From Prunus persica (Eukaryota; Streptophyta; Magnoliopsida; Rosales; Rosaceae), in the NCBI RefSeq assembly GCF_000346465.2, contig NC_034009.1:39600456-39664455 (forward strand): 64,000 nucleotides of DNA. Reading direction: 5' to 3'. Made by a program: the position numbers and the translations under genes. Positions within the stretch are counted from its first letter, which is position 1, and each line of letters starts with the position of its first letter. Under the pieces are notes generated by a model. It was not told where the DNA came from and searched no databases. It saw only the letters and a list, made by a program, of their open reading frames with translations. Positions 121-40,100 of the stretch are shown in pieces.

Positions 121-1571
121 CCATATCCCTTAAATAGATGTGAGACGACACAACGATTCGTCCTCTGTTTCAGTAAAGCTAGGTCCCTCCTTACTTCCTG
201 CTCAAACTGAGGACCTAAACATTGGTCCAATAGTTTTTCCATCCGTATGACCTTTAAGTGAAGGACGTCTTTTTCCCGCTTTTCTTGAAACAACTCGGAC
301 CTCAACAAGCTTACCACCTTGTTCAACTCATCAAGATCACCACATGAAGAAGGAATTGACTCTGCCGAGACAACAGCAGGGCGATCCTGTGGCCAACTCC
401 AATATGGCTGTCTCATTTCCTCTTCACTTAGACATAGCGCCCGCAACTGAACTGACTGTTTCAGAATACAGACAAGAGTCATATTAAATCATTCTACTTC
501 ATAATTTCATTCAATCTTATCAATAGTTCTAAGGGCTGCAAACCAAACCTCTTTGCTCTGGAAAAAATAATTGTTCAACTTTCTCATCTCTGGAACAGAC
601 GTAGTAGTTCTCCATCGCAAAATACGCGGGACAGCGGTCGGATCAACAACCTTGCAGTAATTCAGGTCCGCCATTCTAGGAATTAATTCATATACCCAAA
701 TCTACACAATTCACAGGACAAAAGTCATTATTTATGTTTTAAAGAAAAACAAAACATAACTGACATGAACATTATTACCATGTACCTGGAAAGCATACGT
801 GAAACCTTTAAAACTCCAGCCACTCCTTTGCGCTTCACTATGCTTATCCTTCTTGCCCTTCTCATTTCTCCGGCTTGTTCCCGTTACCTTACTTTTCCCC
901 TTCCCTCTTCCCTCTTCATTTTCCAAGCTTTTCACATACTTTGTTGGTGCAGAAAATAGACTGTCTTGGGTTTTGTCAAAGGACACCGAACCCCACGGAT
1001 ACCTGTTGAACGCATCCAAGTCCTCTACAAGGGTCAGGTAATTTAGATTGATGTTCAAATGTTTGTCCCTTCCCAAAACCACTAACTCAGCAAAGTAAAC
1101 AAGAGGTAGCTTGAAGATGTCATCTTCCTCTGTGCACCTCACAAATGCTTCTTCTAAAGCATTGCATGTAATTCCTTCGTCTATAAAATATCTTTTCTGA
1201 AGTCTGATTTCATTACTCTCTCCACTGGAAACTTCAGGCACTTCCCCAAAACGAAGCCCTGTGATCAAACAGAAATCCTGACGAGTGAACTGAGCAACGT
1301 CACACCCTAATAAGAAACTCAGTCCATCCAAGTCTTTCACACCCTGCCCCGCTACTCTACGCAACACAACCCCATGCACAATCTGTCCGCTAAACTGAAT
1401 CTTATCTATATTCAGAAGATGGCCAAAGCATGATGTCTTGAATTGTTCTAATTGTTCCGCACTCAACTTCGCTCGAATTGCAGCTAGAGATGAATTTGCA
1501 TGTGAGCAGTTGTTCACCCGTGATGAATATACCTCTGCCTCTGGCCATACCAGCTCCACGTTGGATCCCAT
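1..1571 (-). CDS. MULE-associated DUF1985 protein, 5' part (cut by window edge)
   Basis: Reads leftward. Exon 1 (about 1571-786) encodes a DUF1985-type domain, the N-terminal domain of plant transposon proteins that usually end in a Ulp1 (C48) protease; the block from FGHLLNIDKIQFSG to CLITGLRFGEVPE is diagnostic. A CAG/GT donor at 786/785 joins an acceptor at 702, and exon 2 (701-549) continues in frame with KVVDPTAVPRILRWRTTTS. Exon 3 (455-1) starts after a CAG acceptor, carries QPYWSWPQ, a helical charged segment and an acidic tail, and stays open to the left edge. The exon 2 donor (GAG/GT at 549) is the least certain junction. I chose the Met at 1571 because the residues before it do not resemble the family. 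No stop is visible within the exons. The protease itself would lie outside the window. Host relevance is unlikely; this is transposon cargo. Confidence 0.75.
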
Positions 1572-2020
1572 TTCCTCAAATACAATGTGAAATAACGTGA
1601 ACATATATACTACCACGTATTTGCACAATCACAACTAGTCAACCAGGCACATTACAACTTTTACAAAGTACATGAGCATATGGATTACTCATCACAGGCT
1701 TTAACATCATCAAAGCAATATGACAATTTTTGTGCAAATACCTGTTAATGCAATGATTATGTGAATTACAAACAATTTCACGTGTTTTATTTATGGATCC
1801 ATACTCGTGTGAGTGCAATGTAGGCAAGTTCTGCACTTCACACACATGACAATTATTGTCATCTCATACACAACCCAAAATAAATAAATAAGAAATATAG
1901 TGGAAGGAAGCAAAGCAAAGCATGTACTCTGCTATCTGCTTGCTAAGCAATTGCCACATCCTTCTTTCTTTCTACCTTTTTCTTCAGTCACCCACAATCG
2001 TCATAGATCAACCTTCATTT

Positions 2021-10134: not shown

Positions 10135-11689
10135 ATGGGGTTTCATCTCCCACTCATCTTTGCTCTTCTCAGTGTAAGCTCTGCAATTTGATTAACTTTT
10201 CCATTCTCTCTCATTGTACTCTATATAAACGAAAGTTTTGTGTTCCTATTGTTCTCTCCGATTTTATTTAGTACGTACTTAAGTGTCGTCCACTAATTAA
10301 TTATACTTTGTGATTTGATTTTAATTTGAGTTTGAATTAATGTTGCAGCTAGCAGCAGTGGCACTGGCAAACCATGCTGCTCAACCAGCACCTCAACTTT
10401 ACTGGAGCTCCGTCCTGCCAAACACACAGATGCCAAGATCTATCAGTGAACTTCTGCATCCTGGTTTGTGTTGAGCTCTTTAGAATCTTAGATATCTCTT
10501 CTACCTGCCATTTTACTAAAATATGTTCCACCACATATTTATCAGTTAACCATTGTCATTACATGAGTGACACATATTCACAAATCGGCTGATCACTTAT
10601 TTTCCATTATGACTTGATATATAATTTGCAGACTCCACAAATGAAGAAAAGAGCACAAATGACGTTGGCAAACCTGAAACTTTCCCATTGGGCAATCAAC
10701 ATTACTCCAGTCAAAAACATTATGGAGGCATACCTGAAACTTCCCCATTGGGCAATAAACATTACTCCAGTCAAAAACATTATGGAAGAGGCAAACCTGA
10801 AACTTTCCCATTGGGCAATCAGCATTACTCCAGTCAAAGACATTATGGAAGAGGCAAACCTGAAACTTTCCCATTGGGCAATAAACATTACTCCAGTCAA
10901 AAACATTATGGAAGAGGCAAACCTGAAACTTTCCCATTGGGCAATCAGCATTACTCCAGTCAAAAAAAGTATGGAAGAGGTGCTTCTCCATCCGACAATC
11001 AACAACTCCATTATAAAGACTTAGCTATTTTCTTCTTGGAGAAGGACATGCGCCCTGGCACAACAATGAAGTTCCAATTCCCTATAAATTCAAACACGGC
11101 TACTTTCTTGCCACGAGAAAGCGCTCAATCGATCCCCTTCTCCTCTAACAAACTGCCAGAAATTTTCAACCATTTTTCAGTGAAGCCAACATCTGAGGAA
11201 GCCAAAACAATTAAGCAAACAATCGAAGAGTGTGAAGCTCCAGACCTTAAGGGAGAGGAAATATATTGCGCCACATCTTTAGAATCAATGGTTGATTTTA
11301 GCACTTCGAAGCTTGGAACAAGAAACGTTGAAGCAATCTCGACGGAGGTATTGGAAAAAGGAGCCACCATGTCCATCCAAAACTATACAACAATGCCGGG
11401 ACTGAAGAAGTTGGCAGGTGACAAAGTCGTTGTGTGTCATAAGCAGAACTATCCCTATGCTGTGTTTTTCTGCCATGCAATAAAACATACAGCAGCTTAT
11501 GCTCTCTCCCTGAAAGGCGATGATGGGGAGAAGGTTAAAGCAGTAACCATCTGCCATCTAGACACATCAGAATGGGACCCAGAGCATATGTCCTTCCAAA
11601 TCGTCAACGTTAAGCCCGGAACCATTCCCATCTGCCATTTCATTTCCACTGATGCTATTGCCTGGGTTCCGAACCACAAATCTGCATGA
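10135..11689 (+). CDS. BURP-domain protein, RD22/USP-like (BURP1), intact
   Basis: Three exons: 10135-10173, 10349-10463 and 10632-11689, all with GT-AG introns, giving 403 residues. The first 20 residues form a signal peptide (hydrophobic LPLIFALLSLAAVALA, likely cut after ALA). The short segment LYWSSVLPNTQMPRSISELL follows, as in RD22 and USP proteins. Residues 64-168 are five copies of a 20-21 residue repeat. The BURP domain starts near residue 184 (FFLEKDMRPGT) and holds the four Cys-His pairs at 320, 332, 359 and 386, i.e. CHX10CHX25CHX25CH. RD22-type proteins are secreted or wall-associated and often respond to drought or abscisic acid; that role is known for the family and not shown here. 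The start is set by the TATA box, the signal peptide and exon junctions. AATAAA at 11870 is a likely polyadenylation signal. Confidence 0.9.
10667..10980 (+). repeat. Five in-frame 60-63 bp repeats in BURP1 exon 3
   Basis: Units encode G.PET.PLGN.HYSSQ..YG(R), with alternation of Q and K after GN (Q, K, Q, K, Q). The alternation suggests that a two-unit block was duplicated. BURP2 and the truncated copy near 61701 have one unrelated stretch here (GNGKPIDHKGKPEN) and no repeat, so the array expanded in this copy only. Long open frames on the other strand and in other phases in this interval are by-products of the repeat. Confidence 0.9.
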
Positions 11690-16829: not shown

Positions 16830-16942
16830 CATGGGCGGTGCTATGCACAGGACAGTGCCTGCCTAGTCCAAATTTTTTTTAAATAAAAATAAAAATCTAC
16901 ATATGTTATAAGCTCATCCAAAAAAAAAAAAAAAAATAAAAG

Positions 16943-17117
16943 TGTTGTAAATTATAAGGTGGAGCCCACATGTTGGAAGGCTTTGCCTACAAAAGGGTTC
17001 ACACCCTCCCTTTGTAATTAGACATTGAGAATACTAAGGAAGACAGAAATGAATAGAGAGAAAACATTCCCTTCTCTCCATCTCAATTCCCTCTCCAATT
17101 CCTCTAGATTTATAACA
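16943..17117 (+). repeat. 5' LTR of the gene-carrying retrotransposon
   Basis: 175 bp, TG...CA bounded, matching 18567-18741 base for base by eye. Confidence 0.92.
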
Positions 17118-17270
17118 CGTTATCAGCAGCACGAATCGCTTTCAAACAATACCAGCTGAATTTTATGATGAAACCCAGATCTCTCATCCATCTCTGCTGC
17201 TCCACTACTTCAAAATAAATCCCACAGAAAAAGAAAAAGCCTCAATGCTCTCTCTCTCTCTCTGTCTCGC

Positions 17271-17432
17271 TTGGGAGACTTGGACAATTCCTCATCCCCG
17301 TTACTGACAATTTCAACAGCTTCAGGGGAAGCTAGTTTATCTTCCTCTGCTCACGAAACCATGACTCTTTCAGAGCCAAACAACAACACAATAGACAACG
17401 CATGGAGACCAGACTGGAGCTCGTCGGCTAAG
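17271..17432 (+). pseudogene. Unidentified captured coding fragment
   Basis: Open frame beginning MGDLDNSSSPLLTISTASG and continuing to about DNAWRPDWSS before the transporter-derived piece begins. Ser/Thr-rich and acidic, in the sense orientation like its neighbours. It looks like the N-terminal region of a host protein, but I do not recognise it. Frame from 17271 reads on to 18014 only by running through the following pieces out of their own frames. Confidence 0.4.
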
Positions 17433-17530
17433 GCACCGACGATCCGACCCTACCCGTATGGACCTTCCGGATGTGGTTCCTGGGTCTTGTCTCATGTGCC
17501 CTCCTCTCATTTCTCAACCAATTCTACAAG
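17433..17530 (+). pseudogene. Oligopeptide transporter (OPT family) fragment
   Basis: In the frame of the ATG at 17471 it encodes [19 protein letters not shown] and then [12 protein letters not shown], the conserved N-terminal segment and first membrane helix of plant OPT transporters. It is about 33 residues in sense orientation, and the sequence changes at once to the glucanase-derived piece. The parent is a plasma-membrane peptide/metal-chelate transporter; this fragment cannot function as one. Confidence 0.8.
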
Positions 17531-17553
17531 CAGCAGAGCTTCAAATCAAACAG

Positions 17554-17920
17554 ATCATGGCATCGCTTTCACACCTCCCCATCTTCCTCTTCCTCCTGTT
17601 CACCGCTTTCTATTCTACAGCTTCGCAGTCCTTCATCGGCGCATCCAAAGGCGACATACCGGCGCTCGCCTCAGATCCGAACGCGGCGGCTCAGTGGGTG
17701 AACTCGAATGTCCTCGCCTTCTACTCGGCCAGCAACATCGACCTCATCAACGTCGGCAACGAGGTCCTTTTTCTCCAACGACCAGGGCCTCATCTCGCAG
17801 CTCCTCCCCGCCATGCGAAATGTCCAATCTGCCCTCTCCGCCGCGTCCCTCGGCGGCAAGGTCCGTGTCTCCACGGTCCACTGCCTCGCCGGATCGGGAT
17901 CCTTCCTTCAAGTGTTTCTC
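17554..17920 (+). pseudogene. GH17 glucan endo-1,3-beta-glucosidase fragment
   Basis: ATG at 17554 begins a signal peptide ([19 protein letters not shown]) ending near TASQSFIG. The sequence then jumps directly to [17 protein letters not shown] and INVGNEVLF, skipping about 50 residues that normally lie between, including the start of the barrel. One extra T in the run at 17767-17771 shifts the frame. The next frame carries SNDQGLISQLLPAM and ALSAASLGGKVRVSTVH. INVGNEVL contains the acid/base glutamate region of GH17 enzymes. The absence of introns fits capture as cDNA. The later strand has a very GC-rich base composition compared with its surroundings. Confidence 0.85.
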
Positions 17921-18021
17921 TGTCTTCGACTTGAAAAAGAAGGTCATGGCAGGCCTATGTAAAAATTGCGAAAAGGAAGGCAATCTTCAACCTTTTCTCC
18001 TGTCTCTCTCTTGATCAATTC

Positions 18022-18264
18022 ATGGAAGGCACATTTGGGTCTTCCGGGGGCTCATCAAATGAGTCAGCAATGTCAAAGGTGGAGGTGGTGGAGCAAGACT
18101 ACGTGGGGATGTCATATGAGGCAACCTCATACCCAGCTGAGGCAGAGCTTGTGCTGGGCCTGGGCCTTGGCCTGAGCCTTCGTGGTGGTGGTGCAGGGAA
18201 GCAGCCAAAGCCATGTGCATGGGGTGAGCGTGGTAGAATCTTGACTGCTAAAGTTAGGTGCTGA
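18022..18264 (+). pseudogene. Aux/IAA repressor N-terminal fragment
   Basis: Open frame of 80 residues from ATG 18022 to TGA 18262. It contains YPAEAELVLGLGLGLSLRGG, i.e. the LxLxL EAR repression motif of Aux/IAA domain I, and ends WGERGRILTAK, the stretch just before domain II in IAA11-like proteins. Degron, dimerisation and DNA-related domains are absent. About 90 bases of what looks like 5' untranslated leader precede the ATG. If expressed it could be an EAR-only peptide, but nothing here shows expression. Confidence 0.75.
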
Positions 18265-18400
18265 GTTACACTGTGTTCTCTGCTACTGACCCTAAGAGGA
18301 GTGCTAGAAACTTCCATGTTCCGCCATCATTTCGCTTTCACTGTTACAAGGCACTGGAGTATGTTTAATTGAAAAGTGAGATACACAGCAAGTTGATCAG
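18265..18400 (+). pseudogene. Unidentified captured fragment
   Basis: Reading LSYTVFSATDPKRSARNFHV and then PPSFRFHCYKALEYV before a TAA near 18369. The composition looks like real protein sequence and is in the same sense as its neighbours. I cannot name the source. It is followed by the retrotransposon's own 3' leader from about 18400. Confidence 0.4.
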
Positions 18401-18566
18401 CCTAGTGGAAAGCAAAGGATTATTGCCAGGGATATGAACACCCACCGAAATAAAGGGATAAGTACTCTTTTTCCCTTCGACCAGTTTTTTTTTGTCCCAC
18501 TGGGTTTTTACTGGCAAGGTTTTTCACGAAACATATTCCGTATCATTTGTGGTCTCTAAGAGGGAG

Positions 18567-18741
18567 TGTTGTAAATTATAAGGTGGAGCCCACATGTTGG
18601 AAGGCTTTGCCTACAAAAGGGTTCACACCCTCCCTTTGTAATTAGACATTGAGAATACTAAGGAAGACAGAAATGAATAGAGAGAAAACATTCCCTTCTC
18701 TCCATCTCAATTCCCTCTCCAATTCCTCTAGATTTATAACA
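18567..18741 (+). repeat. 3' LTR of the gene-carrying retrotransposon
   Basis: Matches 16943-17117 over the full 175 bp; preceded by the purine tract at 18558-18566. Confidence 0.92.
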
Positions 18742-19774
18742 AAAAGTAAATTCTACACATATGTTGCCCATCCAGGTGGTCCCATATCTTCTCTTTCCTT
18801 TTCTTTTGGCTATTAGACTTCTTGTTTCTCTCTCTCTCTTTGCTACCCCACATCAGCAAGTTTCTCCCTCTCTTTTTTTGGGATCAAATTCTTCTTCTAT
18901 TGACAAAATCTTCTATTATATTGGGTGGGCAACTTGGCAACAACATCTTCTCCTCTCCTTTTGTCAACAGCAAGTATTATTCTCATTCTCTCATTTGCTA
19001 TATATCTTTAATTATAGTTTTAATTTAAAATTGAGTATTCTAGGGTTTAATTAGGGATGAATTATAATTTTGGGATTTTGTTGAAATTAATTAGGGCTTC
19101 GATTAGGGGTGAATTATTCTACTGCTTTGATTTGGAATTTTGTTAAAATTGAGTATTATAGGTTTAATTATGGATGAATTACAATTTTTGGTTTTGGTAT
19201 TGTTGAGATGTTATTATGAGAATTTGTTTGATTTTTTGTTGGTATATTTGATTAAAATTCTTTCTACATATTATTCATAGGCTATCTTTTATTATGTCGG
19301 ATCACAATCGGAATCCCAAGAAAACAAAAAATTTGAATAGTGTTGTTTTGTATTGCATTGCATTTACTTTTGGTTTTAGTTTTGCTTTTAGTGTAAATTA
19401 CTCAAATGGTCCTCAAATTTGTACCCAATTTACATTTTGGTCCATAAACTAAATTATTCATTCAAATGGTCCACCAACTCTTTATTAATCGGTGCTTTGG
19501 TCCTATCGTTATGTTTTCTATTAAATTTAGTCATGTGAGCAGCACATGCTACATTTGTATGGGTAAATAAGACTTTTGACCAGTGGCGGATCCACGTTGG
19601 GACAAGAGGGGTCGGACGACCCCTTGGAAGGCTGGAAATTTGGCAAGGGAGTCCATGAAAGCCCCCTTGGACAGCTGCTGGAAGCCCCCTTGTATGCACA
19701 CAATGTGCTCGACGAAATGCCCCAACGAAATGTCCTGCGCAGCTGTGCTGCGCCTTGCGCGTAATTTTTTTTTA

Positions 19775-19875: not shown

Positions 19876-20523
19876 AAAAAAAAACAGAACAGTACACACG
19901 CACAGCAGCTCTGCACAGATTCATTTTCTCCAAACCTTTCATTCCCAATTCCACAGCCCCTCTTCCCATCCTCTCAAACCCTAACCTCCCAACCTCCCAA
20001 CCTTGGACAACCTCCATCAACTCTTCACCGGTGGCCCAATGCCGATCACCACCACCTTCTACCGCCGTCCGCCGCCCATTTTTTAAACTACAAGTAAGTA
20101 AGCATGGAAAATCTGATATTAATAATTATAGTGATAATATATATTGTTGATATTGATATTTTTTTTTTATGTAATGAAATTTATGGATATGAATCATATT
20201 GATTGATTGAGTTTATGCTTGAAATTTATGGATATGAATCATATTGATATTTTTTTTTATGTAATTAAATTTATGGATATGAATCATAGTGATAATCATA
20301 TTAATGTAGATTGATTGAGTTTATGCTTGATTGATAATATGAATTGATTGGGTATATTAAATATTGATTGCTATTTGATATGATAATTTGGTATATTGAA
20401 TATTGATTGATATGGGTTTAGGGAGTATATTGAATATTGAGAGTGGGTTATTGAAATTTTCATATTCATATGATAATTAGGATAAAAATTAATGATTGAT
20501 TGAATTAATTGATTTGTAGATTT

Positions 20524-22873
20524 ATGGAACGATTCTTTAAAAGAAAATTATCTACGGATAGTTCTTCTCTGTCTAATCCGGGTAGTTCAAATGCAAGACC
20601 AATTGAAGTAGATGAGATCTTAGCTAATCTTCAAGCAGACCCTGGACTAAGAACTCGAATGGCGGATTATAGTCCTAATATTAGGGATGAGATCCGAAGA
20701 GCATATCTACAAAAGGGACCTTGTCAACCTAGAAGTTATAAATTCCCACAAACTAATCAATCAGGAATTAATAGACGCTTCATTGCTCATTGGTTTGATG
20801 ATCATGATTGGTTGGAATATAGTATTGCTAAAGATGCTACGTTTTGTCTTCATTGTTATCTCTTCAAATCTAATTTTGATCAAGTGGGTGGTGATGCATT
20901 CACTGGGGTAGGCTTCAATAATTGGAAGAAGGCGAAAGAAAGATTTAACCTTCATATTGGACCGGTTGGTAGTGTTCACAACCAAGCTAGAGAAGTTGCT
21001 TACAATTTGATGCATCAAACTACACACATTGAAACAATTGTGCTCAAGCAAACAAGCCAAGCTCGCACGGCTTATCGCACTTGCTTGAATGCATCACTTA
21101 AGTGCACTAGGTATTTGTTGCGGCAAGGGCTTTCTTTTCGTGGTCATGATGAAAGTGCACAATCAAGTAATAAAGGGAATTATTTAGAGCTCTTGCAATT
21201 TCTTGCGGATCATGATGAAAAAGTTAAGGCCGTTGTATTGGAAAATGCTCCGGGAAATTTAAAGTTAATAGCTCCTTCAATTCAAAAAGATCTTGTCAAT
21301 TCTTGTGCCAAAGAAACCATTGATCTTATCTTGAGTGATGTAAAAGATAGATATTTTTCAATAATGGTGGATGAAGCACGTGATGTTTCAATAAAGGAGC
21401 AAATGGCAATGGTGTTGCGTTATGTGAATGACAAAGGACAAATAATTGAAAGGTTTGTGGGGGTTCAACATGTAACCGACACTACTTCAAGTGCACTAAA
21501 GGAAACAATTGATGAATTCTTTTCTTCCGCGAATTTGAGCTTTTCCAAGCTACGAGGACAAGGTTATGATGGAGCTAGCAATATGAGAGGTGAGTTCAAT
21601 GGCCTTAAGAGAAAGATTTTGAGAGAACAACCTTGTGCATTTTATGTTCATTGCTTTGCTCATCAACTTCAACTAGCTCTTGTTGCGGTAGCAAAGAAAA
21701 ACATTGATGTCAACTCTTTTTTCACAACGGCTAATAGTTTGGTTAATGTGGTTGGAGCATCTTGTAAGCGTCGCGATGCACTTAGAGCACAATACCAAGA
21801 AGAGCTTGTGAGAGCTTTTGAAGATGATTGTCTTATAACGGGGCGGGGCTTAAATCAAGAAAGGACTCTCAAACGTGCCGGCAATACACGATGGAACTCA
21901 CATTATGGTACGTTGATTAGTATCATTTCTATGTTCCCATCTGTGGTGAATGTGCTTCAAATGATTGTTGATGATAATCTTAATGATAGTTCGGGTGAAG
22001 CCTATAAGTTAAGGAGAGAAATACAATCTTTTGAGTTTGTGTTTCACTTATTTGTAATGAAAGCTATATTGGGAATAACAAACACTTTGTCTCTAGCATT
22101 GCAAAAGAAAGATCAAGACATTGTGAGTACAATGAATTTAGTGAAAACATGCAAGGAAAACCTGCAGTTGATGAGGGATAATGAGTTTGAAGAATTGGTT
22201 GGGCAAGCATCCTCGTTTTGTTACAAATATGATATTATAGTTCCTACCATGGATGAGGAATATGTAATTCCAGGGAGATCATGGCGTAATGCTCCAATGA
22301 AGACAAATTATCATCGTTATCGTGTGGAGATCTTTATTCATGTAATTGATGGGCAACTTGCGGAATTAAATGATCGCTTCAACGAGGTAAGTACTGAGTT
22401 ACTTACTTGTTTGGCATGCTTGAGTCCAAAAAATAACTTTGTGACTTTTGACAAACGAAAGCTAGTTCGTCTTGCTCAATTTTATCCTTATGATTTTTCG
22501 GATAGAGACTTATTGATGCTTGAAGATCAACTTGGTGTTTATGTTCATCATATGCGTTCGAGTAGTGATTTTTCTCAATTGGAAGGGATTAGTAGTCTTG
22601 CGGAAAAAATGGTGGAGAAAGGAATGCATGAAATATTTCCTTTTGTATTTGCTTCTTACATTGGCTTTGGTTTTACCGGTTGCAACTGCATCAGTGGAGA
22701 GGGCATTTTCCGCTATGAATATTATTAAAAATCCACTTCGCAACAGAATGGGAGATCAATGGTTGAATGATAGCTTGCTTGTTTACATTGAGAGAGATGT
22801 TTTTGCTTGTATTGATAACGAAATTATAATGCAATGTTTTCAGAATATGAAAACTCGTCGTGGACAATTGTAA
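20524..22873 (+). pseudogene. hAT transposase (TTF zinc finger, DUF4371, hAT C-terminal), one frameshift
   Basis: Starts MERFFKRKLS, the usual start of this family, just after a 3' splice site. Order of parts: TTF-type zinc finger (about 21-50 kDa N-third; CLHCYLF), DUF4371/RNase-H-like catalytic region with FSIMVDEARDVS (first catalytic Asp), RGQGYDGASNMRGE (second Asp), the conserved NTRWNSHY Trp, and the C-terminal dimerisation block ATASVERAFSAMN. Up to FPFV at about 22643 the frame is open. There it shifts by one, and the true C-terminus (YLLLTLAL to KTRRGQL) continues in the next frame to TAA at 22873. A single small indel therefore separates this copy from a full-length gene of about 780 residues. 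Such proteins cut and paste the element by a hAT mechanism in the nucleus. Confidence 0.9.
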
Positions 22874-36271: not shown

Positions 36272-38938
36272 TCATTCAATCCATATATCTTCACACCCAT
36301 CTCGAATATTTTGACCGCCTAACTCACCCACCAGTTCATCAAATGTGTCAACATTTGGCATCCCTCTAGTAAATGGCTCACACTCAATTATCACATCACC
36401 TAAGACTTCATCACCAATAACATTATTATATTCTCTATTAGGCATTGATAACACTACCGACCAACCACGATGCATCGGGTCGTCAACAAAAAATATTTGT
36501 TTGACTTGAGAAGCCAAAACAAATTGGTCATTCCTATGTCCAATTTTACTCAAATCTACAAGGGTAAATCCAAGTTCGTCGACTACAAGACCAGAACTAT
36601 CTATCCAATCACACCTAAAGACTGGGATTGTAAACTTTTGGTAGTCAAGGTCCCAAATTTCTTGAATGACACCATAGAAACCCATATTTGAGAGAATTGA
36701 GTTTTTATCCTTGGCACTAGCAACTTGCATGGTATGTGCAAGTAAATAAACTCCACTATTTTGAGTTGTCCGCACATCATCTTGTGCCTTGATATTGAAT
36801 TTAATACCTTTAATAAGATAGCTCCTATATAATGGCACAGCCATGTTTGGACCAGCTGCTAGCCACCTTAAATTTTCTGATACGCCATGATTGTCTTCCT
36901 CAAGTTCACTTTGAACCTGCAAATTAATCATATATCTTAATGCAATCTAACATAGAAATAAGAAGAAAATTAAAAGAGAAATATGTTATTCAACAACATA
37001 TACCTTGAAGCGTAGCCATTGAATGAAAGTGTTATTGTGCTTATCCTGCAGCCACTTTGTGATTTAAGGTATGACAATCATGTGATTTAAGGCCAAGAAG
37101 TCTTGAATCTTGTAAAGATACAAGATTTTTAATATTTGAAGAATAACCTTCAGGGACCTTCATACCATAGAAAGAATTGCAAACCTCTCTCTTCTCTGCT
37201 CTTGACAAATTCCAAGGCCCAGGAGGCAAACGAGTACGTCTTTCTCCATACTCGGGTTGCAAATCAGTTTTGACCCCCATGTTCAATAAATCTAATCGAG
37301 CAGCAATCCCATCTTTATTTTTTCCAGGGATCTCCAGCAATGTACCAATGATACTATCGCAAACATTCTTCTCAATGTGCATAACATCTAGGGCATGCCT
37401 CACAGGAAGGTATTTCCAATACTCGAGATCAAAGAATATTGATTTCTTCTTCCAACAAACTCTGTCACCATTTTCAACCATGTGCAGCACTTCTTCTCCG
37501 GTTAATGGCTCGGGAGGTATGCCATATTCAGGTTTCCCATTAAAAGCTGCACGTTGCCTCCTATATGGATGATTGATTGGTAACCATTTTCTATGCCCAA
37601 TGTAACAAATTTTGTGGCCATTTTCAACCTGTGACTAGGTGTATCATCGCCGCATATTGGACAAGCTTTATATCCTTTAACAACACAACCAGATAAGTTT
37701 CCATAGGCGGGGAAATCATTAATTGTCCACATTAATGCAGCTCTGAGTGTAAAGTATTCTCCATTATGTGCATCATACACTCCTCTAATCCCATCCCACA
37801 AAGATTTTAAATCATCAATCAAAGGCTCCAAGTAGACGTCTATATCATTTTCGGGTTGTTTAGGACCGGAAATCAATAAGGTTAACATCATGAACTTTCG
37901 TTTCATGCACAGCCATGGAGGGAGATTATATGTAACTAAGATAACCGGCCAACAACTATATCTGCTACTTAGAGAACTGTGGGGATTGAATCCATCAGAT
38001 GAAAGAGCCAATCTCAAGTTTCTCGGCTCATTACCAAACTCAGGCCATTTATCATCAAGAAGTTTCCAAGACGGGGAATCCGCCGGATGAGACATCTGAC
38101 CGTCAATTGATTTTCTAGCAGCATGCCAAGTCAAACTCTTAGCTGTCTCATGTGATTGAAACATCCTTTTAAACCTTGGAATTGGAGGAAAATACCACAC
38201 CACCTTCGCTGGCACATCCTCTTTCAAGATTGAATCTTTGCCTTCCTTCCACCTTGAGATACCACAAGTAGGACAATTAGTTGAATCCTCATACTCCTTC
38301 CTATACAAGATGCAATCATTGGGGCATGCGTGCATTTTCTCATAACTCAGCCCCAATGCACACAAAGTCTTTTTTGCCTCATACATAGAGGTTGGTATTG
38401 TATTTCCTTCTGGAAGCAAATCGCCTTGAAGTATCAATAATTCTGTAAAACAGACATCACTCATCCCATGTTTTGCCTTCAAATTATACAACTTCACTAA
38501 TGCCGATAACTTCGTGTACTTTCTACAACCAGGGTACACTGGTTGATCTCCATCCCCAATCACATTGGCAAACTCATACGGATCGGAACCAAAATCACCA
38601 AAATCATTATCATCCATATCAATTTCTTCAGACACAAAACTGTACCTACTATGGCCATCATCTTCTTCAACATTTCTACTAGCATTAGTAGTTGCTTCCC
38701 AAGGTTCTCCGTGAAATGTCCAATTCTTATAGCTTTGGTCAATTCCATTAAAGTATAAGTGATCCCTTATAATTCCAACCCCAAACAACTTCAAATTAAC
38801 ACATTTAACACATGGACAACGGATATGTGTTGTAGTTAGAAGATTTTCTACAGCAAAGTTCAAAAATGCTTCCACCCCAAACTCATATGCCTTCGATCTT
38901 CTATCCGAGTGCATCCATGACTTATTCATCTCCGACAC
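36272..38938 (-). pseudogene. CACTA transposase (TNP2/TNPD type), frameshifted and internally deleted
   Basis: ATG at 38938. N-terminal transposase-associated domain (MNKSWMHSDRRSKAYEFGVE, CPCVKC) is followed by Transposase_21 (Cys pairs CPNDC, CPTCG; YFPPIPRFKRMF; LALSSDGFNPH; GYKACPICGDDTPS). One A is missing in the run near 37622, so the frame shifts. The continuation, GHRKWLPINHPYRR to HALDVMHIEKNVCDS, is in the next frame. Just after GLKSHDCH (near 37078) most of the DUF4218 region is gone and sequence resumes with DKHNNTFIQWLRFK (to 37004). A GT-AG intron (37003-36917) leads to the DUF4216 exon (36916-36272; WLAAGPNMAVPLYRSYLIKG). This family performs cut-and-paste transposition of CACTA elements; this copy cannot be functional. 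Confidence 0.9.
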
Positions 38939-40100
38939 TATAACCTATTATCTATAATAAAGTGAAAATACAGGCAATGACCATCACTATAGCAGATTAT
39001 ACAAAGATCTAATAGCAAGTAATACATAACAGAGACGACGGGTTTTAAACAAAAACAGACGTATTTGGCATATATAGACGACGGATTTTCAACAGACGTC
39101 GTCTAATATAAGTAATACAAACGACGGTTTATGAAAAAACCGTCGTGTATAAGTAATACAACGACGGTTTTTTCATAAACCGTCGTGTAATCGTCGTCGT
39201 ATGCCTAAAAAGGCGTCGTGTCTCAGTTTATTTTCAAGAACCCAAAACCCATTAAGAACACAACATATATATGAAACCAAGCAAGAAACCAACATATACA
39301 TGAAGCCAAGCATGAAAACAATAAATCCATTCCCAATTCAACATAACATAGGGTGATTAAAAGATCCGACAAAATTAAAACCATTCCCAATTCAACATAA
39401 CAGATAATGTAATCCATGAACCCATTAAACAGAAAATCCATGAACCTATACCTATAAGCACATTATTAACAGATCGCAAAGCATATACCTAAAACCCTTT
39501 AACAAAACAACCTAATATCATTCAATGAATTTACAAAGGGAAGATAGGGTTTGTACTTACAGGTTGGACGAGCTCACAGATTCGACGAAGCCTGGAGAGT
39601 GCAACTTTTAATTAGAGCAGAAGTGAGAGAGCGAATGTTATGTTGCGCGAAATCTGAAAATTTTAGGGTTCAGGGTTAGAAGTATAAGAATAAGAGCCAA
39701 ATATAAAAAAATTTAGGGCGCGCGAAAATTTTTAGAGCGCGCGCTCTTTAAAACGTCGAAAGAAAAACCATGGCGAAAGTTCTACAAGAACCGACGTAAA
39801 TGTAATATTCCACGACGAAAACACTTAACGTAACGCCGTTTATTTTGACGTTCATTTTTCGGATTAATTTTAAATTTATTTTGAATATTTTGATATAAAG
39901 ACGACTGAAAAACCACGTCGAAGTTAAGAAATTGAAAACGTTGTAAATTATAATAGACGACTTACATATTAAAATGACGTCGTTTAAAGTGGAAACCATG
40001 TCGGATATTTTACTGCACGACGTAACATATGTATTCCACGACTCAACCACCGTCGTTAACAATTAATACCCTAAACCCTTAAAACTAAATTATATAATTT
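38939..40100 (-). promoter_or_regulatory. CACTA transposase leader exon, intron and promoter region
   Basis: A leader exon ends at 39561 with a donor reading CCT/GTAAGTAC on the minus strand. The intron runs to an acceptor just before the ATG (ataggttatag near 38945). Upstream, 39710-39750 holds a GCGCGC-rich inverted pair (agggcgcgcg, agcgcgcgct), unlike the AT-rich surroundings. ACGACGG motifs recur at 39030-39210 and 39760-40060, so putative protein-binding sites lie inside the intron as well as the promoter. Confidence 0.6.

Follow-up and report, generated by a model that had tools for sequence, protein, structure and literature searches.

The analysed window is a 64-kb stretch of the peach (Prunus persica) genome, C1:39600456-39664455 in an assembly of 227.5 Mb and 192 contigs. 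It contains a 1,799-bp element in which two long terminal repeats (LTRs) enclose pieces of five host genes. The neighbourhood includes a DUF1985 sequence (735-1628, minus strand), a BURP-domain gene (10625-11686, plus), a DUF4371 ORF (20509-22725, plus), which we take to be hAT-type, and a tnp2 transposase (37505-38944, minus). Rfam and tRNA scans of the 64-kb window returned no matches. The features of the element, in window coordinates, are as follows.

16938..16942, no strand: left copy of the target-site duplication, AAAAG
16943..17117, plus: 5' LTR, 175 bp, TG...CA, identical to the 3' LTR and with many relatives in the genome
17118..17134, plus: primer-binding site CGTTATCAGCAGCACGA, directly 3' of the 5' LTR
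17118..17178, plus: conserved family leader, matching sequence directly behind the LTR in sibling elements
17272..17377, plus: first-exon piece of an IDD (BIRD) C2H2 zinc-finger gene; donor C1:34371872-34371977, 96%
17308..17447, plus: block of the IDD end and 56 nt without a donor, 98% identical to an LTR element at C5:9308652-9308791
17434..17525, plus: OPT transporter piece (5' coding sequence); donor C8:10827988-10828079, 97%
17526..17620, plus: GH17 5' UTR and signal-peptide exon; donor C8:12975230-12975324, 99%
17621..17881, plus: GH17 exon 2 piece; donor C8:12975537-12975952, 98%
17877..17984, plus: TPR-gene piece; donor C8:22456260-22456368, 97%
17982..18253, plus: Aux/IAA 5' UTR and N-terminal piece with the EAR (LxLxL) region; donor C1:3457989-3458290
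18022..18264, plus: 80-aa ORF from the native Aux/IAA ATG, with EAR kept and degron and PB1 missing
18365..18468, plus: family 3' anchor directly behind the cargo slot, covered in eight sibling loci
18469..18566, plus: terminal 3' segment with a purine tract
18567..18741, plus: 3' LTR, 175 bp, no difference from the 5' LTR
18742..18746, no strand: right copy of the target-site duplication, AAAAG

Paired TG...CA LTRs with a target-site duplication, a primer-binding site after the 5' LTR and a purine tract (AAGAGGGAG, 18558-18566) adjoining the 3' LTR identify an LTR retrotransposon. An initial annotation of this DNA had described two identical LTRs, a perfect AAAAG repeat and the absence of retroviral-type genes, and these points stand: the LTRs agree over their full 175 bp (16943-17117 against 18567-18741), AAAAG is present at 16938-16942 and 18742-18746, and neither ORFs nor Pfam matches reveal gag or pol in the element. 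Zero differences in 2 x 175 bp place the 95% upper bound of the insertion age at about 0.7-1.7 Myr under substitution rates of 1.3e-8 to 5e-9, and the identity of the LTRs suggests that the element is possibly mobile. The insertion site is A-rich, which makes the duplication weak evidence on its own; 10 of the 11 sibling LTR pairs have a 5-bp duplication of their own. The primer site takes the form CGTTATCAGCACGA in the family, to which the window copy adds three nucleotides. The family form is complementary to the 5' half of tRNA-Ile(AAU) except at a single place, a C opposite A34; in the mature tRNA-Ile(AAU) this A34 is inosine, which pairs with C. Twenty stretches of the genome match the tRNA-Ile(AAU) part with up to three mismatches allowed. 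The 3' anchor was seen in siblings L032, L033, L034, L037, L038, L039, L042 and L047. The several-kb 3' backbone of the long members is missing from the window element, where the anchor meets the terminal 3' segment over the 7-nt shared run GTACTCT.

The inner 1,447 bp of the element served as the genome query in the search for donors; 40 of 575 first-look candidates were scored, with BLAST on individual loci for refinement. Five donors were located, each at its own locus, on contigs C1 and C8, with identities of 89-99%, and Pfam scans of the donor loci confirmed the family of each: all five are genes. The sense-oriented OPT, GH17 (with its signal-peptide region) and Aux/IAA EAR pieces recognized in the initial annotation are thus all present and now have located donor genes. 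The same annotation also spoke of one or two unidentified genes; two such pieces can now be named, IDD (17272-17377) and TPR (17877-17984), and the genome search found no donor gene for 17179-17271, 17378-17433 and 18254-18364. The identity of the Aux/IAA piece to its donor is 89%, counting about 30 nt of gaps, and its LxLxL is the EAR motif. In the GH17 piece, exon 2 contains a 153-nt in-frame internal jump at 17634-17641 over an 8-nt shared run, CATCGGCG, followed by a +1 frameshift (an extra T); the Pfam GH17 match of the piece (E=2e-4) lies under the family's curated cut-off. The piece starts 32 nt downstream of a TATATA in the donor. As a general rule, capture beginning at donor transcription starts was rejected: among seven donor pieces tested, one begins at the TATA-predicted start.

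The claim that the captured pieces are intron-free holds for the one piece that bears on it. The GH17 donor has an intron of 215 bp (L045:1596-1810, GT...AG), and exactly that stretch is missing from the window piece. The IDD, OPT, TPR and Aux/IAA pieces match unbroken donor stretches and span no donor intron, and intron loss is thus scorable in GH17 only.

The IDD and TPR pieces lie in one reading frame, OPT and GH17 in two others, and no single ORF in the window element keeps all donor frames. As the pieces do not keep a common frame, the element is unlikely to produce a functional fusion protein. The 80-aa ORF might possibly yield a short EAR peptide. Compared with a protein database, a 247-aa ORF of the element matched 27 proteins, none covering more than 29% of the ORF. 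No gene entry for the chimera of the window element was seen among these 27 matches.

Alignment to the donors and sibling elements reveals shared runs of 9, 0, 8, 1, 3, 1 and 7 nt at seven joints of the window element. The 9-nt run lies within 14 nt over which the parents differ at one position; the 3 nt at the TPR to Aux/IAA joint require a 1-nt slip and are otherwise 0; and at the last two joints one or both parents are a sibling element rather than a gene. The joint at the IDD end was left out of the scoring because the 56 nt that follow have no donor. Under a simple chance model, runs of at least 3 nt at four of seven joints have p 2e-4 (p 4e-3 for three of seven, if the slip joint is set to 0), and three joints of at least 7 nt have p ~2e-9. 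Reverse transcriptase switching templates would be expected to leave such runs; against this count the three or four of the seven joints with just 0-1 nt in common. Eleven joints in sibling elements overlap at BLAST level by 11, 2, 1, 2, 1, 3, 5, 5, 3, 7 and 1 nt, gap-separated neighbours being left out and BLAST ends being inexact; exact reading of the 11-nt overlap leaves 5 nt.

The search for further copies of the element uncovered a multi-copy family. The LTR end followed by the primer site occurs 97 times exactly and 619 times with up to two mismatches, against 0 for the reversed control. Paired long members measure 6.1-7.2 kb, with LTRs of 157-189 bp. Eight of the 97 exact matches were drawn systematically, regardless of cargo (list positions 8, 18, 28, 38, 48, 68, 78 and 88; position 58, which is L015, was already among the sibling pairs and was left out), and 1 kb from the primer site was read in each, the 3' LTRs lying outside this reading. 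Host-like pieces, either named by Pfam or matching the genome elsewhere, are present in all eight:

L090: nodulin-like (Pfam)
L091: ATP-synthase N-terminal domain and AMP-binding enzyme in one ORF (Pfam)
L092: genome donors, one GT-AG intron exactly absent (genome match)
L093: TCP, L093:403-888, minus strand, antisense (Pfam)
L094: thioredoxin (Pfam)
L095: genome donors, one GT-AG intron exactly absent (genome match)
L096: several genome matches, some of which may be other elements, and a weak Pfam DUF4408 (E 0.0094)
L097: UFC1 (Pfam)

Five of the eight (L091, L092, L093, L095 and L096) combine two or more loci or protein families. At E 0.01, Pfam matches were obtained for 5 of 12 sense ORFs and 1 of 10 antisense ORFs in this sample; one ORF each of L092, L095 and L096 had no Pfam match. 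The sibling LTR pairs give a similar picture, with Pfam-named or genome-matched host pieces in 10 of 11: their cargo includes RbcS, PH, serine carboxypeptidase, pectinesterase, RRM, DOMON and, twice, TPR-Aux/IAA. The pieces of L013 and L023 are unnamed and known from genome matches, some of which may be other elements; the eleventh pair, L024, is known by the blocks it has in common with L023, and three of its ORFs have no Pfam match. The family claim rests on these 19 members, the 11 LTR pairs and the eight sampled. Cargo or tail sequence in common led to additional members, which contain a C2 domain, an alpha/beta hydrolase fused to a class-I aldolase, Sec15 and a class-II DAHP synthase, with no Pfam match for three further cargo ORFs and one tail ORF; as they were picked by likeness to the window element, they are not an unbiased sample.

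These counts bear on the Bs1-like reading of the initial annotation. A young element without gag or pol, which fused pieces of more than three host genes through RNA and works like maize Bs1, is supported by the present data; a one-off event is not, as the LTR family is multi-copy, its sampled members carry other host pieces and two blocks of the window element are shared with other elements. An ordinary LTR family, a single copy of which captured several genes by chance, has Bs1 as a precedent and would agree with the occurrence of the OPT and GH17 pieces in no other element scored, but is improbable given host pieces in 8 of 8 siblings drawn regardless of cargo and in 10 of 11 sibling LTR pairs.

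The gaps between captured pieces and their donors provide a view of the route of capture. Base-level reading of nine donor skips gave five that fit GT-AG, one that fits CT-AC and three that fit neither. The GT-AG skips, exactly absent from the captured copies, belong to the GH17 donor, the aldolase donor (two), one donor on C7 and one on C2. The CT...AC fit of a skip on C3 holds for one among eight possible alignments and may be fortuitous; the piece (L095 sense q647-652) is perhaps a spliced one in antisense. Skips of 204 bp on C6, 191 bp on C8 and 132 bp on C3 fit no intron, so some gaps are jumps or deletions, and the proposition that all skips are introns is ruled out by these three of nine. 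The antisense TCP match in L093 likewise rules out sense-only capture; capture is not always sense. The antisense TCP cargo of L093, and perhaps the CT...AC piece of L095, look as if captured during plus-strand synthesis. In L034 (1843-2662, minus), pieces from opposite strands of one point, C3:26904096-26904485, flank a C2-domain gene piece.

Capture at the DNA level, by a Pack-type process, gap repair or nested insertion, would agree with the antisense piece and with the three skips that fit no intron. Exact GT-AG intron removal in the GH17, aldolase (two), C7 and C2 donors, together with the finding that every donor of the window element is a gene, makes it improbable.

Parts of the window mosaic are shared with other elements. 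The 17308-17447 block and the element at C5:9308652 display the same departures from the IDD donor. The block of TPR, Aux/IAA and tail (17877-18468) is 98% identical to C5:15548669-15549261, within the element C5:15543364-15550012, the LTRs of which are only 85-89% like those of the window element, gaps excluded; parts of this block also occur at C1:29804502 (98%) and C5:13484816 (89%, with a gap). The closest LTR (97%, C3:18354081) belongs to the element C3:18347188-18354260, the first 1.5 kb of which contains a PH-domain gene piece and merely 32 nt of the TPR-Aux/IAA block. No other element among the 40 of 575 first-look candidates scored has the OPT or the GH17 piece. Blocks residing on differing LTR backgrounds indicate that the window element arose by recombination among several family lineages, with OPT and GH17 pieces in addition. 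Both the IDD block with its donorless extension and the TPR-Aux/IAA-tail block were inherited from the family. The same mosaic also occurs at several places in the genome, three for L095 and two for L092, and the family mosaics evidently recombine between LTR lineages and re-transpose. Aux/IAA EAR-coding parts recur in six elements (L032, L033, L034, L043, L050 and the window element, 17982-18253), with differing neighbours.

A long member, C5:13483990-13490824, was read through three overlapping loci and contains no ORF of the size of gag or pol. Thirteen ORFs of at least 60 aa from its middle (both strands), two from its 5' part and two from its 3' part produced no match to gag, integrase or reverse transcriptase, and four ORFs of this sibling had no Pfam match of any kind. 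The scan covered uninterrupted ORFs, at the ends on the plus strand only. Neither the window element nor this long sibling thus has the gag and pol of an autonomous Copia or Gypsy element. The longest ORF in the middle is antisense, encodes 191 aa (L061:1594-2169, minus) and is coiled-coil-like. Of its 42 relatives, those with a named source are mostly from Prunus (apricot, brigantina, campanulata and dulcis) and one is from Malus, so the family backbone is old in the group. Two almond relatives of this ORF are annotated as 'receptor kinase 3'.

One of the family's chimeras is found among annotated genes. The hydrolase-aldolase fusion within C8:14759632-14766375 (L047) is 100% identical over 93% of the query to an annotated Prunus persica protein named caffeoylshikimate esterase. 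The chimera of alpha/beta hydrolase and fructose-bisphosphate aldolase has entered the public peach gene set, and some peach gene models, at least one caffeoylshikimate esterase, are transposon chimeras.

Two further explanations are very improbable. Read-through transduction, in which transcripts run from an element into adjacent genes, is known for retroelements (PMC13317346), but the pieces of the window element sit between the leader and the 3' anchor and not beyond an LTR, and their source loci are widely separated on C1 and C8. A host gene or retrogene merely flanked by two LTR-like repeats, for which the annotation of a sibling chimera as a peach gene might speak, is at odds with the primer site, purine tract, target-site duplication and family membership, and with the partial coverage of the 247-aa ORF by its database matches.

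That the LTRs, target-site duplication, primer site and purine tract surround a five-gene mosaic without gag or pol is confirmed. The window element is very probably a young and shortened copy from a non-autonomous LTR family of peach that takes up host mRNA in a cargo slot, its 5' internal region. Host mRNAs would be packaged with family RNA in particles made by a putative helper. During minus-strand synthesis, reverse transcriptase would leave the element RNA for spliced mRNAs and return to it, often at short stretches of identity; each round could add, trim or exchange host pieces, and switching between co-packaged family RNAs would recombine older mosaics. Co-packaging, the helper and the order of these steps are what we infer, while the anatomy, the five donors, the GH17 intron loss, the joint runs, the blocks on differing LTRs and the cargo of the sampled members are observed. 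The broader proposition, that capture of host mRNA is the family's normal mode of replication and the region behind the leader a free cargo slot, we hold to be an even chance. If true, nearly each insertion lineage would make a new multi-gene chimera, then pass it on and recombine it, and the family would be a standing generator of exon-shuffled transcripts across Prunus, some of them adopted as gene models.

The known examples of LTR elements capturing genes are mostly single fragments, or solitary cases where several genes are involved. LTRs are long in classic LARDs and short (157-189 bp) in the peach family; one long sibling does have the multi-kb internal region without gag or pol that characterizes LARD-like elements, and the window element itself is short. 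The LTRs of TRIMs measure about 100-250 bp, a size the peach LTRs fit, but the window element with 1,799 bp and the paired siblings with 6.1-7.2 kb fall outside the class. Gene-carrying TRIMs comprise 30 elements of 1,172-1,449 bp in seven subfamilies, two TRIMs having exons of more than two genes; soybean GmaRetroS15 has intron-less exons from up to three genes, a 5-bp target-site duplication and several copies (PMC4717578). The peach family shares with GmaRetroS15-type TRIMs the spliced host pieces, the 5-bp duplication and the multiple copies, and differs in its long paired members and in having cargo in every sampled copy. Maize Bs1 is described as one element with three transductions, containing pieces of a proton ATPase, a xylan endohydrolase and a beta-1,3-glucanase (PMC13317346). 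As in Bs1, at least three host genes, a glucanase included, lie between the LTRs and the intron is lost where testable, a likeness in way of working; unlike Bs1, a single element, the peach mosaics are diverse, form a family and undergo recombination and renewed transposition. A survey of maize B73 reports 425 intact LTR elements with host fragments and at least 189 captures and, under its own conditions, none in which fragments of two or more standard nuclear genes occur together (PMC2774510); the window element resembles these in holding host fragments within an LTR element and differs in having pieces of five host genes. Pack-MULEs, Helitrons and Pack-CACTA likewise capture host gene pieces one after another and shuffle them, but are DNA elements, and Pack-MULEs carry exons and introns (PMC4717578); the spliced peach pieces point to capture at the RNA level. 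The antisense 191-aa ORF has counterparts in the antisense additional ORFs of Retand, Grande and RIRE2 (PMC7264820), although no recognizable gag or pol accompanies it in the long peach member. We therefore describe the peach element as working like Bs1 and the gene-carrying TRIMs and file it as neither.

What is new is scale and habit: all sampled copies of one family carry and recombine host pieces. We found no report of such a family in the open-access literature, which does not in itself prove its absence in print. Most donors of the window element are still 96-99% identical to the captured pieces, and the sibling mosaics are in various stages. If the family holds, the switch sites, direction, donor choice, rate and fate of chimera building by reverse transcriptase become measurable.

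An LTR-end variant, GTTTTATAACA, was followed as a lead to the helper and set aside: the two loci read, L098 and L099, have the sibling LTR type and the same primer site but are almost ORF-less and carry no visible cargo, and the 619 loose matches therefore include loci that are not capture members. The pair L015/L016 (C5:8172094-8178544) has no target-site duplication and a purine tract upstream of its first LTR, and resembles a portion of a tandem array whose elements have an LTR in common.
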